This document shows positions 17,041 through 47,007 of a stretch of 55,493 nt of DNA, in pieces. How positions within the stretch are numbered: the stretch's first letter is position 1; each line of letters starts with the position of its first letter. This DNA is from Anaerolineales bacterium (GTDB lineage: Bacteria > Chloroflexota > Anaerolineae > Anaerolineales > Villigracilaceae). A program made the translations under genes and the position numbers. The notes beneath the pieces were generated by a model, which worked only from the letters and a program-made list of their open reading frames with translations, did no database searches and was not told the DNA's origin. The stretch covers positions 1 to 55,493 of the forward strand of contig JABFSL010000097.1 in assembly GCA_013140605.1 (NCBI GenBank). Reading direction: 5' to 3'.

Positions 17041-17458
17041 TATGAGTGGACCTCACCCTGATTCAGAAGATTGATCGGCATGTTGGTTCGTCCCTTCGCG
17101 TAGCACCCTATGGGCTCCCAAGGTGAGAGGGGATTTTATTGGTTTCTTTTCTACATGATGGGGTTGTTGATTTTCCAAGCCAACGTTTCGTTTTAGGAGC
17201 AAATAGCCTCTCCCTATGGGGAGACGGGAGAGGGGTTTTGAGCTAGATGACTTGTCCCTTTGCGCAGCATGATAATCCTGCTGCTCTTGTGGGACCCTGT
17301 GGGCTCCTAAAGGAGAGGGCATTTTGTTTCTGGTCCGCGGGTCGGTGCGGGCTGAAGCCCTTCCTCAGTTCGTGGAAGTCGGCTGCACCGACTCAGCGCG
17401 GAGCGCTTCCATGTGCTGAGCCAGGGGTTTACCCCGAAGCGAAAGTAAGGATAAATCC
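17041..17458. repeat. Composite repeat, copy A (left of the toxin-antitoxin module)
   Basis: A mosaic of CCTCTCCC/GGGAGAGGGG palindromes and a segment reading CGGTGCGGGCTGAAGCCC, TTCCTCAGTTCGTGGAAGTC and GCGCTTCCATGT. Long parts recur in the same order and orientation at 18203-18505, including TTGTTGATTTTCC / TTGTTAACTTTCC followed by CAACGTTTCGTTT. The 550-base gap between the STAND gene and the toxin holds nothing else recognisable apart from the promoter at 17473-17500. Confidence 0.85.
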
Positions 17459-18202: not shown

Positions 18203-18505
18203 GCGGACCTCTCCCTGATTGAGACGGTTTATGAGCAAGTTGACTTGTCCCTCTCCTAAAAAGGAGAGGGCATTTTCTTGTCTTCTTTTCTGTTTGATAA
18301 AGTTGTTAACTTTCCTGTCAACGTTTCGTTTGAGGAAGGTTCTAGCCTCTCCCCTTGGGGGGAGACGGGAGAGGGGTTTTGTTTTTGCTTCGCGGGGTCG
18401 GTGCGGGCTGAAGCCCTTCCTCAGTTCGTGGAAGTCGGCTGTGCCGACTCAGCGCGAAGCGCTTCCATGTATTGAGCTAGGGATTTATCCCGAAGCGAAG
18501 ACGAG
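18203..18505. repeat. Composite repeat, copy B (right of the toxin-antitoxin module)
   Basis: Direct copy of the 17041-17458 repeat: shared CAACGTTTCGTTT, GGGGAGACGGGAGAGGGGTT, TGCGGGCTGAAGCCCTTCCT, and a GTCGGCT / GCCGAC hairpin. It differs by small substitutions and is shorter; copy A holds an extra CCTCTCC-type unit. The rest of 18152-18565 has no gene. Confidence 0.85.
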
Positions 18506-42972: not shown

Positions 42973-45900
42973 TTATTTCATTAACTGTTCAACTCTAGAC
43001 TCACCCACCGAGTAATACTTCGCATTCCTGTGATGGACAATGATGGCGGCGGTGGATTGTTCGGGGATGAGTTGTCCCGAGGTAGCGAGGCTCATGCCGA
43101 GTTCTGTTTCCACGCCAGGCAATAGTTGAAAGACCTTGAAGTGATCTTCCAATTCGGGGATGGCGGGATAGCCCCATGAATAACGCTTGCCCTGATCTTC
43201 GCTCAGACCTAACTCGCGGCGGATGTGCTCATGCAGGTAATTGGCTGTCGCTTCGGCAGTTTGAACTGCAAGTCCGTGTAGGAAGTAGGCTTCGGTATAG
43301 TCGTTGGCGGCCTGCATCTTTTCAAATTTTTCGGTGGCTTCGAGACCGACAGTGACGACTTGAAGGGCAACCACATCCATTTGACCTGACTCAACGGATG
43401 CGTAGTAATCTGAAAGTGCGAGATGATCGTCGTAGGGTTGGCGTGGGAAGTTGAAACGCGCGATCTCTGGTAGCGGATTTGGAAGCGGATAAACGGATGA
43501 AACGGATTCGGGATCATAGATGATCAGGTCATCGCCATCGGCCTGACATGGGAAGTAACCATACACGGCTTGAGGTTTGAGCCAGCTATCTTTGAGGGCT
43601 TCCTTGGTCATCTTGGCAAGGCGGGCATCGAAGTCTTTCTTCATCTTTTCCCATTCTGCGCCGTGGGTGTTCTTTGCGCCCCAGGATAGACGATACAGTT
43701 CGTTGATGTTGAGATGCTTGAGCACCATTTCCAACGGCATGTCATGAACGACTCTTTGACCAAGTTTCGTTGGGAGAGCAATTGGTGCTGGCACAATGTT
43801 TGAACGTTCAACCGTTCGAACGTTTGAACGTTCAACGCTCGGACGGTTCATTTCCATGTCTGCATCTTTGCGGAGTTGCTCAAGCATGGCTGGTTTGCGT
43901 TTGGGGTCGATCAACGAGTCCATTGTGTCGAGGCCTTCGAAGGCATCCTTACAATAGAAGACACCAGGCTCGTAGGCGTTGCCATCCTCGGCGAAGAGGA
44001 TGCGACGACCGAAGCGGCGGTTGATGGCCGCGCCGCCAATGAGGATGGGAATCTTATGTCCACGGCGCTGCATTTCGTTGACAATGAGCGGCATCTGCTT
44101 GGAAGTAGAAACTAACAAGGCAGATAAGCCAATTGCTGTGGCGTTGGCTTCCACTGCTTTGGTGATGATCGTCTCAGCAGGGACTTGCTTGCCGAGATCA
44201 ATGACGGTGTAGCCGTTGTTGGCGAGAATGGTCTTGACGAGGTTCTTGCCAATGTCATGCACATCGCCATAGACTGTGGCAATGACAACTGTTCCCTTGG
44301 TGACGCCTTCCACTTTTTCGAGATAATTCTCAAGATGGGAGACGGTCTTCTTCATCGTTTCAGCTGATTGCAGCACGAAGGGCAGGATCAATTCACCCGC
44401 GCCGAATTTATCTCCCACTTCTTTCATGGCGGGGAGGAGAACGGTGTTAAGGGTGTGGACTGCAATCTCGTGTTGACGCGCCCTCATCCCCAACCCTTCC
44501 CCCGAGGGGGGAAGGGAGTTCCCCTCTCCTTTCGGGAGAGGGGGTAGGGGTGAGGGAGCGAGTCTTTCATCAAGAATGTCCCAGAGAACATTCAGCACAT
44601 CTTCTGTTTTATTAAGAACATCACTATTCCAGAAACGAACAACTTGAACACCTTGCTTTTCCTTTAACGTTTTTGTACGCTCATCATCATACTTGACTTG
44701 TTCATCTTCATTGTGTTGACTTCCATCAAGTTCAACACAAAGTCTTGCTTCATGACAATAGAAGTCCAGAATATAACCTTCCATTGGATGCTGACGACGG
44801 AATTTCGCATCATGGAACGCACGATTGCGGAGAATTGACCACATGAATTGCTCGGCTTCGGTAGCATTTTTGCGCAATTCACGGATGCGTTCTTTTAGTT
44901 TGTCGGGAAGGCGTGAGTTATATTTGATTGGCTTGCCCTCATCCCCAACCCTTCTCTCCTCGGGAGAGGGCAGGGTGAGGGAGCGGTTCATGATCTCGTC
45001 AATATCCGCTTCGACACCATCTTTGTGGCGGTGCAAAATTTTCCAGTGCAGTCGTTGCTCAGGGGTCATACCTGCTGTGGGGTCAGCAATAGCGGACTCG
45101 GTTGAAACGGTGACTGTTTCAAAATGCTCAATGAAAAGTTGAAGTGCGTCTGCGCGGCGGTTGAAGATCAGGTCTTCGCACAGGTTGCGTTCTCCTGCCC
45201 CGATCTCGGCGTATGGCATCACATGCGCGGCGTTGACGATAGCCATGTCCAGACCAGCTTGAACGCAGTAATACAGCATGACGGAGTTCAATGGAGGGCG
45301 AGCCTGTGGGGCGAGACCGAAGGATAAATTGCTCACGCCAAGCGAAGTCATTACGCCAGGCAGATTCTGTTTGATGAGTCGAATACCTTCAATAGTCTCT
45401 TTGGCGGAGTCGACAAATTCAACATCGCCAGTAGCGAGGGTGAAGGTAAGGTCATCGAAGACCAAATCTTCGGGCTTGAGTCCGTGGTCATTGACGGCGA
45501 TATCGTAAATACGTTTTGCAACTTCATATTTGAGTTGCGCAGTCTTTGCCATGCCGTTCTCGTCTATGGTGAGACAGATCACCGCGGCGTTGTGTTTCTT
45601 TGCGAGACCAAAAATCTTATCGGCTTTTTCACGGCCCGATTCGAGATGAGTTGAGTTGATCAAACAACGTCCAGGCGCAGTTTGCAATGCGATCTCAAGC
45701 ACATCCACTTCGGTGGTGTCGATCACGAGCGGAACGTCCACGCCCATTTGCAATTTCTTGATGACCTTGCGCATCTGCTCGCCTTCGTCAGCGCGTTCGG
45801 TGACAGCCACGGAAATATCCAAGGCATGTGCGCCGCCCGCAACCTGATCACGCGCAATTTGCAAAATGCCATCGTAATCTTCTTCGAGCAGGAGCCGCTT

Positions 45901-47007
45901 GAATTTGCGCGAGCCTTGCGCGTTGCAGCGTTCGCCGAGCAGGGTTGGGGCAGGTTCCTGTCGCATGGAAATAGCTGACATGGCAGAAGCAAGCTGAGGC
46001 GTGGAGCGAAGCGGTCGCTTGGGATGTGGATGCTCATCTAGTTTTTGAATCAGCAGTTTAAGATGTTCAGGCGTCGTGCCGCAGCATCCACCCACAACAG
46101 AAATATTGTGCTTGGTCACAAATTCATATAAATCATTCGCGAACGGTTCGGGCTCAAGCGGATAAACTGCCTGACCATCGACATTCAATGGAAGCCCTGC
46201 ATTTGGAATGCACGAAACGGGCAGCGTTGAATTTTCTCCAAGAAAACGAATCGGCTCGCGCATGTGCTCGGGGCCAGTGGAGCAGTTGAGACCGATGACG
46301 TCGATGCCCATGCCTTCAAGGATGGTGAGGGATGCGTTGATGTCGGTGCCGAGCAACATACGGCCTGTCGTATCCAACGTAACCTGAGCCTGGATCGGCA
46401 AATATTGCTGAGTCTCAACGAAAGCATTGTGAATGCCCGTGATGGCGGCTTTGACTTCGAGAATGTCCTGCGAGGTTTCGATCAGCAAAAGATCAACGCC
46501 GCCTTGAATTAATCCAACAGCCTGTTCACGAAAAATATCTATTAATTCATCATATGCAATATTCGATAATTCGGGATCAGTGGTGGAGGGAAGTTTGCCC
46601 GAAGGTCCGATGGAGCCAGCGACAAAACGATTTTGGATTTCCGATTTTTGATTGACGATTTGGGAATACTCGTCGGCGAGTCTTCGCGCGAGTTGTGCCG
46701 CCGCCATATTGATTTCGATGATGCGGTCTTGCAATCCATATTCCTTCATCGTGATGCGATTCGAGCGGAAGGTGTCCGTTTCGAGCACGTCCACTCCAAC
46801 TTCGAGGAAGGAACGATGGACTTTTTCCACGGCTTCGGGATACGAGATGACAAGATAGTCGTTACATCCGTTGTATTGTTCGCCGCCAAAATGTTCGGCG
46901 GTGAGGTTTTGCAGTTGCAGGCTCGTTCCCATCGCGCCATCGAAGACAAGGACTTTCTTTTCGAGGGCGTCGAGGTAGCGGCGGTTGGTGTATTTTCTTT
47001 GAGTCAT
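42973..47007 (-). CDS. metH: Cobalamin-dependent methionine synthase with in-frame DUF559 endonuclease insertion
   Basis: 1,344 residues. Homocysteine-binding domain about 1-325 (GLNCSTGP; VGGCCGTTPEHL zinc Cys), pterin-binding 355-620, cap helices about 650-675 and 843-900, B12 domain 900-1040 (DVHDIGKN about 911-918, SALLVSTS), reactivation domain 1150-1344. Residues about 676-842 are a foreign insert holding an intact DUF559 domain within the cap linker. Without it, the protein is about 1,177 residues, the normal size. Other repeat-derived stretches are 115-128 (QIVNQKSEIQNR), 1053-1070 (VERSNVRTVERSN) and 1167-1182. The SD overlaps the stop of the upstream nuclease-like gene, showing shared transcription under the SAM riboswitch. 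Confidence 0.95.
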   Translation of the reverse strand: MTQRKYTNRRYLDALEKKVLVFDGAMGTSLQLQNLTAEHFGGEQYNGCNDYLVISYPEAVEKVHRSFLEVGVDVLETDTFRSNRITMKEYGLQDRIIEINMAAAQLARRLADEYSQIVNQKSEIQNRFVAGSIGPSGKLPSTTDPELSNIAYDELIDIFREQAVGLIQGGVDLLLIETSQDILEVKAAITGIHNAFVETQQYLPIQAQVTLDTTGRMLLGTDINASLTILEGMGIDVIGLNCSTGPEHMREPIRFLGENSTLPVSCIPNAGLPLNVDGQAVYPLEPEPFANDLYEFVTKHNISVVGGCCGTTPEHLKLLIQKLDEHPHPKRPLRSTPQLASAMSAISMRQEPAPTLLGERCNAQGSRKFKRLLLEEDYDGILQIARDQVAGGAHALDISVAVTERADEGEQMRKVIKKLQMGVDVPLVIDTTEVDVLEIALQTAPGRCLINSTHLESGREKADKIFGLAKKHNAAVICLTIDENGMAKTAQLKYEVAKRIYDIAVNDHGLKPEDLVFDDLTFTLATGDVEFVDSAKETIEGIRLIKQNLPGVMTSLGVSNLSFGLAPQARPPLNSVMLYYCVQAGLDMAIVNAAHVMPYAEIGAGERNLCEDLIFNRRADALQLFIEHFETVTVSTESAIADPTAGMTPEQRLHWKILHRHKDGVEADIDEIMNRSLTLPSPEERRVGDEGKPIKYNSRLPDKLKERIRELRKNATEAEQFMWSILRNRAFHDAKFRRQHPMEGYILDFYCHEARLCVELDGSQHNEDEQVKYDDERTKTLKEKQGVQVVRFWNSDVLNKTEDVLNVLWDILDERLAPSPLPPLPKGEGNSLPPSGEGLGMRARQHEIAVHTLNTVLLPAMKEVGDKFGAGELILPFVLQSAETMKKTVSHLENYLEKVEGVTKGTVVIATVYGDVHDIGKNLVKTILANNGYTVIDLGKQVPAETIITKAVEANATAIGLSALLVSTSKQMPLIVNEMQRRGHKIPILIGGAAINRRFGRRILFAEDGNAYEPGVFYCKDAFEGLDTMDSLIDPKRKPAMLEQLRKDADMEMNRPSVERSNVRTVERSNIVPAPIALPTKLGQRVVHDMPLEMVLKHLNINELYRLSWGAKNTHGAEWEKMKKDFDARLAKMTKEALKDSWLKPQAVYGYFPCQADGDDLIIYDPESVSSVYPLPNPLPEIARFNFPRQPYDDHLALSDYYASVESGQMDVVALQVVTVGLEATEKFEKMQAANDYTEAYFLHGLAVQTAEATANYLHEHIRRELGLSEDQGKRYSWGYPAIPELEDHFKVFQLLPGVETELGMSLATSGQLIPEQSTAAIIVHHRNAKYYSVGESRVEQLMK
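44481..44982 (-). mobile_element. DUF559 endonuclease element inserted in metH, flanked by direct palindromic repeats
   Basis: Two same-orientation repeats, 44481-44557 and 44936-44982, each read CCCTCATCCCCAACCCTT...GGTGAGGGAGCG on the plus strand and contain CTCTCCC palindromes. Between them the minus strand encodes about 120 residues of DUF559 (Vsr-like fold): LRKNATEAEQFMWSILRNRA, FRRQHPMEGYILDFYCHEAR, CVELDGSQH and VQVVRFWNSDVL. The D...ExD-like catalytic residues are present. The whole unit is in frame with metH, without stop codons. Confidence 0.85.

Follow-up and report, generated by a model that had tools for sequence, protein, structure and literature searches.

A candidate homing-like cassette: a DUF559 nuclease domain between coding palindromes, in frame in a bacterial methionine synthase

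The window analysed here is a 55,493-nucleotide stretch (contig JABFSL010000097.1, positions 1 to 55,493) of an Anaerolineales bacterium. It carries a metH gene in which a DUF559 nuclease domain, bounded on both sides by palindromic repeats, lies in frame inside methionine synthase. Related domains are found at the same metH linker in scattered members of the order and within other host genes, and the DUF559 and host phylogenies contradict each other. We suggest, with a probability of roughly 0.6, that this is an unspliced, homing-like mobile cassette with coding palindromes as its ends. Homing elements in conserved genes usually avoid harm through splicing, as inteins and introns. Here, the nuclease domain appears to be retained in frame in the only methionine synthase detected in the bacterium, and also in ValS, HMG-CoA reductase, HrpA, LipB, and other enzymes, in several phyla.

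The cassette in MetH

The features of the locus are collected in Table 1. A sequence-only reading had described a DUF559 domain lying in frame in MetH between palindromic repeats, and the open reading frame, the Pfam matches, and the repeat scan show that this insert and its coordinates are real. Pfam recognises S-methyl_trans, Pterin_bind, DUF559, B12-binding_2, B12-binding, and Met_synt_B12 in the protein. DUF559 is matched with E = 2.1e-33 (114.9 bits, against a cut-off of 20.6), and with E = 8.8e-35 when the insert is searched alone. The approximately 167 extra residues fall in the cap region of MetH: the B12-binding_2 match starts directly after the insert, and there only at profile position 29 of 74, and the NCBIfam metH model (TIGR02082) is split into two stretches, the best of which stops at residue 674. 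Removal of the insert had been expected to restore a normal MetH, and 1344 residues minus about 167 leaves about 1177, while the closest relative found (G031) has an open metH frame of 1178 aa. This relative is 97% identical over the 318 residues before the site and has no DUF559, so the predicted absence of the insert from a related MetH was also observed. The flanking repeats had been described as lying in the same orientation on both sides; they do share GGGTGAGGGAGCG on the + strand (44548-44560 and 44973-44985), but the repeat on the gene 3' side is in fact a double palindrome.

Table 1. Features of the metH locus, and solo repeats of the same family in the window and the genome.
Feature	Position	Strand	Remarks
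metH, host gene	42973..47007	-	1344 aa ORF, frame unbroken across the insert
Whole cassette (repeat, DUF559, repeat)	44481..44982	-	Exact ends uncertain, because the linker differs among relatives without the insert
Palindromic repeat, gene 5' side	44935..44981	.	Repeat scan
DUF559 (PF04480) nuclease domain	44581..44901	-	MetH residues 703-809; Pfam, model, fold matches
Compound palindromic repeat, gene 3' side	44480..44556	.	Repeat scan
Solo palindrome, same family, elsewhere in the window	18249..18270	.	Covered by a frame of at most 171 aa, of which 13 aa are N-terminal to the palindrome
Solo-repeat loci in the same genome (FolP, QueG, MoeA, MurE, CofD, amidohydrolase)	L015 1372-2283 (FolP); L009, L013, L017, L264, L266		

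The sequence-only reading had also seen no intein or intron features, and the family searches agree. No intein splicing (Hint) domain is present in the Pfam or NCBIfam results for MetH. No group I or group II intron family was matched in Rfam at E up to 1, where the only two matches, to microRNAs, are far below the cut-offs. Furthermore, the frame is open through the repeats and the domain. An intein or intron was rejected, as the signatures are absent in Pfam, NCBIfam, and Rfam.

Among the matches listed, there is one metH in the genome, and MetE was not detected in it (the genome is 96% complete). The fused MetH enzyme is thus probably functional. An AlphaFold model of the 391-residue MetH stretch that includes the insert has a pLDDT of 60.8, too weak for judging how the domain fits; by blocks, the repeat-encoded linkers score about 33–47 and the DUF559 part about 63–86.

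The DUF559 domain by itself gives a model with a pLDDT of 87.6, and its best match is the Neisseria DUF559 protein 3hrl. The homing endonuclease I-Bth0305I (3r3p) comes second, with a profile E of 2.2e-6 and a fold E of 5.4e-4, which places the domain in a known homing fold. The position of D58 is occupied by alanine in 3r3p, so the likeness to I-Bth0305I is one of fold and profile, and the active sites may differ. Five residues (Q49, D58, E69, H75, and R101, in insert numbering) are invariant in 40 aligned DUF559 sequences, and dN/dS is 0.05–0.28 in the 7 of 210 pairs with dS < 1.5. By these comparisons, the domain is under purifying selection. Taken together, the invariant residues, the low dN/dS, and the fold matches indicate a domain that is kept as a working protein.

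Besides the MetH insert, the genome contains one further DUF559 domain (L001), which is free-standing and surrounded by other C-rich palindromes and by one repeat word per side. Elsewhere in this metH, at window positions 43799-43849, there is another in-frame palindromic stretch (GTTTGAACGTTCAACC...), which differs from the flanking repeats and, judged by eye, is similar to the palindrome of the G031 metH linker.

Distribution, phylogeny, and host genes

DUF559 is found at the same metH linker in 21 genomes, which are at least 18 of the 350 drawn from the order, together with G011, G034, and G066. Seventeen of the 18 drawn genomes with the insert are among the 225 with metH at E 1e-60, and the eighteenth, G292, is cut at a contig end. 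All of the inserted metH genes are open in frame to the contig limits. In G061, the metH linker holds repeats only, in an array of about 70 residues. Short repeat-like linkers were recognised by eye in six genomes (G008, G364, G374, G288, G185, and G329), and unrelated palindromes, also by eye, in G031 and G032. Several palindromic elements seem to use the metH linker as a landing site. One genome, G071, has two metH genes (L078 and L163), one with the cassette and one without; the second is cut by the contig, and the assembly may be a mixture of strains.

In a metH phylogeny with 67 rows, of which 21 have the insert and 46 do not, the insert label needs 18 changes, compared with a mean of 18.1 after shuffling. 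The presence of the insert is as scattered on this tree as chance. The 46 empty rows are 25 relatives found first, 20 picked near inserted genera, and the second metH copy of G071, and because empty rows were picked near inserted ones, the tree gives scatter rather than frequency. Seven of the rows counted as empty have, by eye, a repeat-like linker lacking DUF559. The G319 row is cut before the linker, so that its sequence does not determine the insert state; without this row, the tree still needs 18 changes, with 18.0 for the shuffles.

The tree of the domain conflicts with that of its hosts. For the 21 inserted genes, AU tests reject the host tree with the DUF559 data (ΔlnL 199, p = 5.5e-4) and the DUF559 tree with the host data (ΔlnL 1099, p = 3.6e-43), and vertical inheritance with losses is thereby rejected both ways. 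Between G012 and G192, the DUF559 domains are 89% identical and the host proteins 75%, and in most of the 210 pairs DUF559 is less alike than the host. A DUF559 tree of 77 rows, which has few columns and many unresolved forks, separates an inserted subfamily (21 metH, 4 valS, 6 others, and 2 free) from most of the free-standing proteins (97/81). The metH-borne domains form nearly one clade (2 changes on this tree), and the HMG-CoA reductase and UvrD copies are nested in it, beside a metH copy from another family (G042; fork 100/97). The conflict between the trees and this nesting indicate that the cassettes have crossed between species and between genes. No clear excess of co-conversion of the host flanks was found near the site, and synonymous divergence, which might date the transfers, is near saturation in most pairs.

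The distribution is therefore patchy, at one site, and incongruent with the hosts, as for a homing element. Presence of the insert at the same place in distant MetH proteins had been named beforehand as evidence against a mobile unit. The insert is indeed present there, but patchily and with a tree that contradicts those of the hosts, so that homing fits better than old inheritance.

The best 28 of the listed matches to the insert all lie in open frames of at least 355 aa, and later ones lie mostly in short frames. Within the order, the domain also occurs in valyl-tRNA synthetase (4 genomes), HMG-CoA reductase, a UvrD-like helicase, an APH-type kinase, a PIG-L deacetylase, an MmeI-type enzyme, and PyrF. 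More distant DUF559 domains share one frame with UvrA (2), MTHFR, DUF1156, another Eco57I-type enzyme, and an ISP-type enzyme. In other phyla, the in-frame hosts are HrpA (at two different positions), LipB, and YgiQ, names that are our reading of the Pfam domain sets, as well as MmeI, Eco57I-type methylases, ISP, and HsdM; for L194, L202, and L231 (HrpA), L212 and L214 (MmeI), and L242 (DUF1156), the host was recognised by eye in the residues on either side of the domain. The taxa among the matches listed include Gallionellaceae, Nitrosomonadales, Burkholderiales, Thiohalocapsa, Competibacteraceae, Bacteroidia, and Balneolaceae. Viral contigs gave only 3 relatives, 41–46% identical.

Pfam matches the host domain in two separate stretches in HMG-CoA reductase, LipB, and YgiQ. 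Within one genus, the HMG-CoA reductase site is empty in G349, G279, and G288, holds a solo repeat of about 29 residues in G292, and holds a full cassette in G324. The ValS site is full in G043, G183, G190, and G147 and empty in G140, G056, and G215, and G104 has a repeat-like linker there (by eye). Frames were compared at 157 loci, from two overlapping sets in which some places are counted twice. The host and DUF559 share an open frame in 77 cases, whereas the open host frame is a different one on the same strand in 0 and antisense in 2. Most insertions that are antisense or out of frame would interrupt the host frame and so go unseen in this test.

The repeat family and its association with DUF559

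Strict palindromes of the form CCCTCTCC-N3-12-GGAGAGGG occur 21 times in the 3.93-Mb genome, compared with 0 for the reversed pattern, a count in excess of chance. A degenerate relative with 2 mismatches lies at window positions 17206-17227, some 1 kb away from the solo palindrome that starts at 18249. Seven of the 21 strict copies are in frame inside a conserved protein, as are the palindromes of the Rickettsia RPE type. The hosts are MetH and, within a Pfam domain, FolP, MurE, MoeA, CofD, an amidohydrolase, and QueG; an ABC exporter of the same genome has a palindrome between its two domains. The Pfam scan took in 10 of the 21 palindrome-bearing frames. The FolP palindrome is absent in all 10 relatives that gave a match (12 searched), and FolP has 15 codons in place of the 9 of its relatives. 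This comparison points to a replacement, rather than a clean insertion with target duplication, and such an event would suit a repair-type process. We found no support for a design of the repeats that keeps stops out of every frame: 15 units of 48 nt average 3.3 of 6 open frames, against 3.7 in shuffles, and the observed value is reached by 194 of 200 shuffles.

Repeat words are found within 250 nt on both sides of the domain in 20 of 21 metH copies, 4 of 4 valS copies, 11 of 18 copies in other hosts, and 3 of 34 free-standing DUF559 genes, with a background of 98 matches in 198,732 bases. As the word list derives from the finding itself, perfect 8-bp hairpins within 150 nt on both sides served as a sequence-independent check. 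These are present in 17 of 21 metH, 0 of 4 valS, 9 of 18 other-host, and 6 of 34 free-standing cases (4–5% of background windows), the four valS copies all having hairpins on one side only. Across the wider taxa, 29 of 45 in-frame and 20 of 30 short loci have hairpins on both sides, with 5 of 80 loci at contig edges left out. With a narrower word list, most of the 30 top-scoring loci have no repeat near the domain. The UvrD and HMG-CoA reductase copies lack any repeat words and have other palindromes instead.

The sequence-only reading had looked to DUF559 genes elsewhere for the same repeat beside them. This holds for one subfamily but fails for most free-standing genes, and a tie of DUF559 at large to the repeat was rejected on the 3 of 34 with words on both sides. 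It is one DUF559 subfamily, rather than DUF559 generally, that is associated with the repeat. Within the taxonomic family of the window, the genomes that carry this subfamily inside a host gene have a median of 43 repeats (n = 17), against 7.5 in the rest (n = 76; p = 2.5e-5, relatedness not removed). Two repeat-poor genomes, G279 (2 repeats) and G180 (1), have an in-gene DUF559 copy. Short free-standing members of the subfamily (L199-L247; Acinetobacter, Geobacter, and others) frequently have hairpin repeats nearby. Outside the inserted subfamily, one free-standing DUF559 (L060, in G054) lies in a dense array of repeat words (13 + 16 in 250 nt).

Explanations and known systems

In the homing-like reading, the repeats encode P/S/G-rich linkers in the host frame, so that the cassette would be tolerated inside the host enzyme and made as part of it. 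The nuclease, produced within the host protein, would cut at or near an empty or solo-repeat site, and repair from a cassette-bearing copy, with the repeats serving as homology, would install the cassette. Recombination between the flanking repeats could remove it again and leave a solo repeat. Only in-frame, tolerated copies would persist. In a needed gene, the cassette would be certain to be expressed, and its imprecise loss would be costly. The endonuclease-plus-repeat unit proposed from the sequence is upheld in being in frame, patchy, at the same site, incongruent with its hosts, and present in several host genes; that DUF559 drives the movement is the part that we infer. A bolder proposal, to which we give somewhat less than an even chance, is that 'coding cassettes' are a new class of mobile element. 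The Vsr-like nuclease would cut its own flanking palindromes and solo coding palindromes would be landing sites, the cassette being the autonomous form and the solo palindromes the non-autonomous one.

In the strongest competing reading, mobility resides in the palindromes, which would be RPE-like or REP-like and moved by another enzyme or by recombination, while DUF559 would be carried along and selected for a function elsewhere, for example in repair or defence. Solo repeats without DUF559 are common, including the strict copies in conserved proteins, and the repeat-rich genomes G061 (160 repeats) and G334 (111) have no match to the DUF559 subfamily at E 1e-15 among the matches listed, all of which a mere passenger would explain. 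However, around each of the 7 Y1 transposase places in the genome, about 1.5 kb of surrounding DNA holds no more than a single repeat word, and a RAYT was rejected as the mover for this genome. Furthermore, the in-gene DUF559 domains are one repeat-tied subfamily, and in other phyla that subfamily is also free-standing with hairpins on both sides in 20 of the 30 short loci counted above. We therefore consider a carried DUF559 unlikely, though well ahead of the remaining alternatives.

A single ancient insertion in metH, followed by vertical descent and many losses, would account for the near-monophyly of the metH-borne domains, but it is already contradicted by the mutual rejection of the host and DUF559 trees, by the HMG-CoA reductase and UvrD copies inside the metH clade, and by the G012 and G192 pair, in which the domain is more alike than the host; we think it very improbable. 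Equally improbable is the recruitment of DUF559 as a useful extra domain, for regulation or for the function of the host. Such a domain would have the low dN/dS that is seen, yet its presence is patchy even among close relatives and the hosts are enzymes with nothing in common. An unrecognised intein or self-splicing intron would suit a homing-like distribution in conserved genes, but with no splicing domain in Pfam or NCBIfam, no intron family in Rfam, and a frame open throughout, it is hardly credible.

If the homing-like reading is true, it would account for some of the unusual linkers and inserted domains of bacterial enzymes, provide a candidate mover for in-frame palindromic repeats, and make natural insertion-tolerant sites and linkers available for protein engineering. 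If coding cassettes are real as a class, they would be a mover of protein-coding palindromic repeats, and a selfish element would persist unspliced in needed enzymes because its ends encode tolerated linkers.

We did not find this arrangement described in the portions of the literature mentioning DUF559 that were covered, and the comparisons that follow likewise draw on portions of the cited sources. ShiLan, in a phage DNA methylase, is also a stop-free insert with homing-like spread and no intein or intron found, and it is thought to be retained in the protein; however, its HNH nuclease is out of the host frame, whereas here DUF559 is in the MetH frame, coding palindromes flank it, and many genes are hosts (PMC11855218). 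The WHO elements of yeast FBA1 also home in a housekeeping gene without protein splicing, but they are intein-derived and replace the 3' end of the gene, whereas the DUF559 insert is internal and in frame (PMC7282813). The Rickettsia RPE, which we liken by description and not by sequence, are in-frame palindromes within genes that likely encode functional proteins, and the sections of the source used here do not mention a nuclease-bearing form (PMC3733652). I-Bth0305I, an EDxHD homing endonuclease, is related in fold and sequence profile, but it belongs to a group I intron and has long additional DNA-binding segments, unlike the bare domain of about 110 residues found here (PMC3943268). New relative to these four is that an in-frame nuclease, terminal coding palindromes, and a breadth of host genes occur together. 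VsrA of Caulobacter is also a Vsr-like DUF559 protein, and the link to the DNA damage response is VsrA's own; it is free-standing, and mobility is not described in the sections used (PMC12907096).

The REP/RAYT systems resemble the cassettes in having dispersed palindromic repeats with an associated DNA-processing enzyme, but that enzyme is of the HUH/Y1 type and the repeats are mainly extragenic, whereas here the nuclease is of the PD-(D/E)XK type and many insertions are coding (partly after PMC3733652). By eye, the palindrome in the metH linker of G032 (L045) resembles hairpins near a Y1 transposase of our genome (L273, about 1676-2138), so a second repeat family may also land in this linker.
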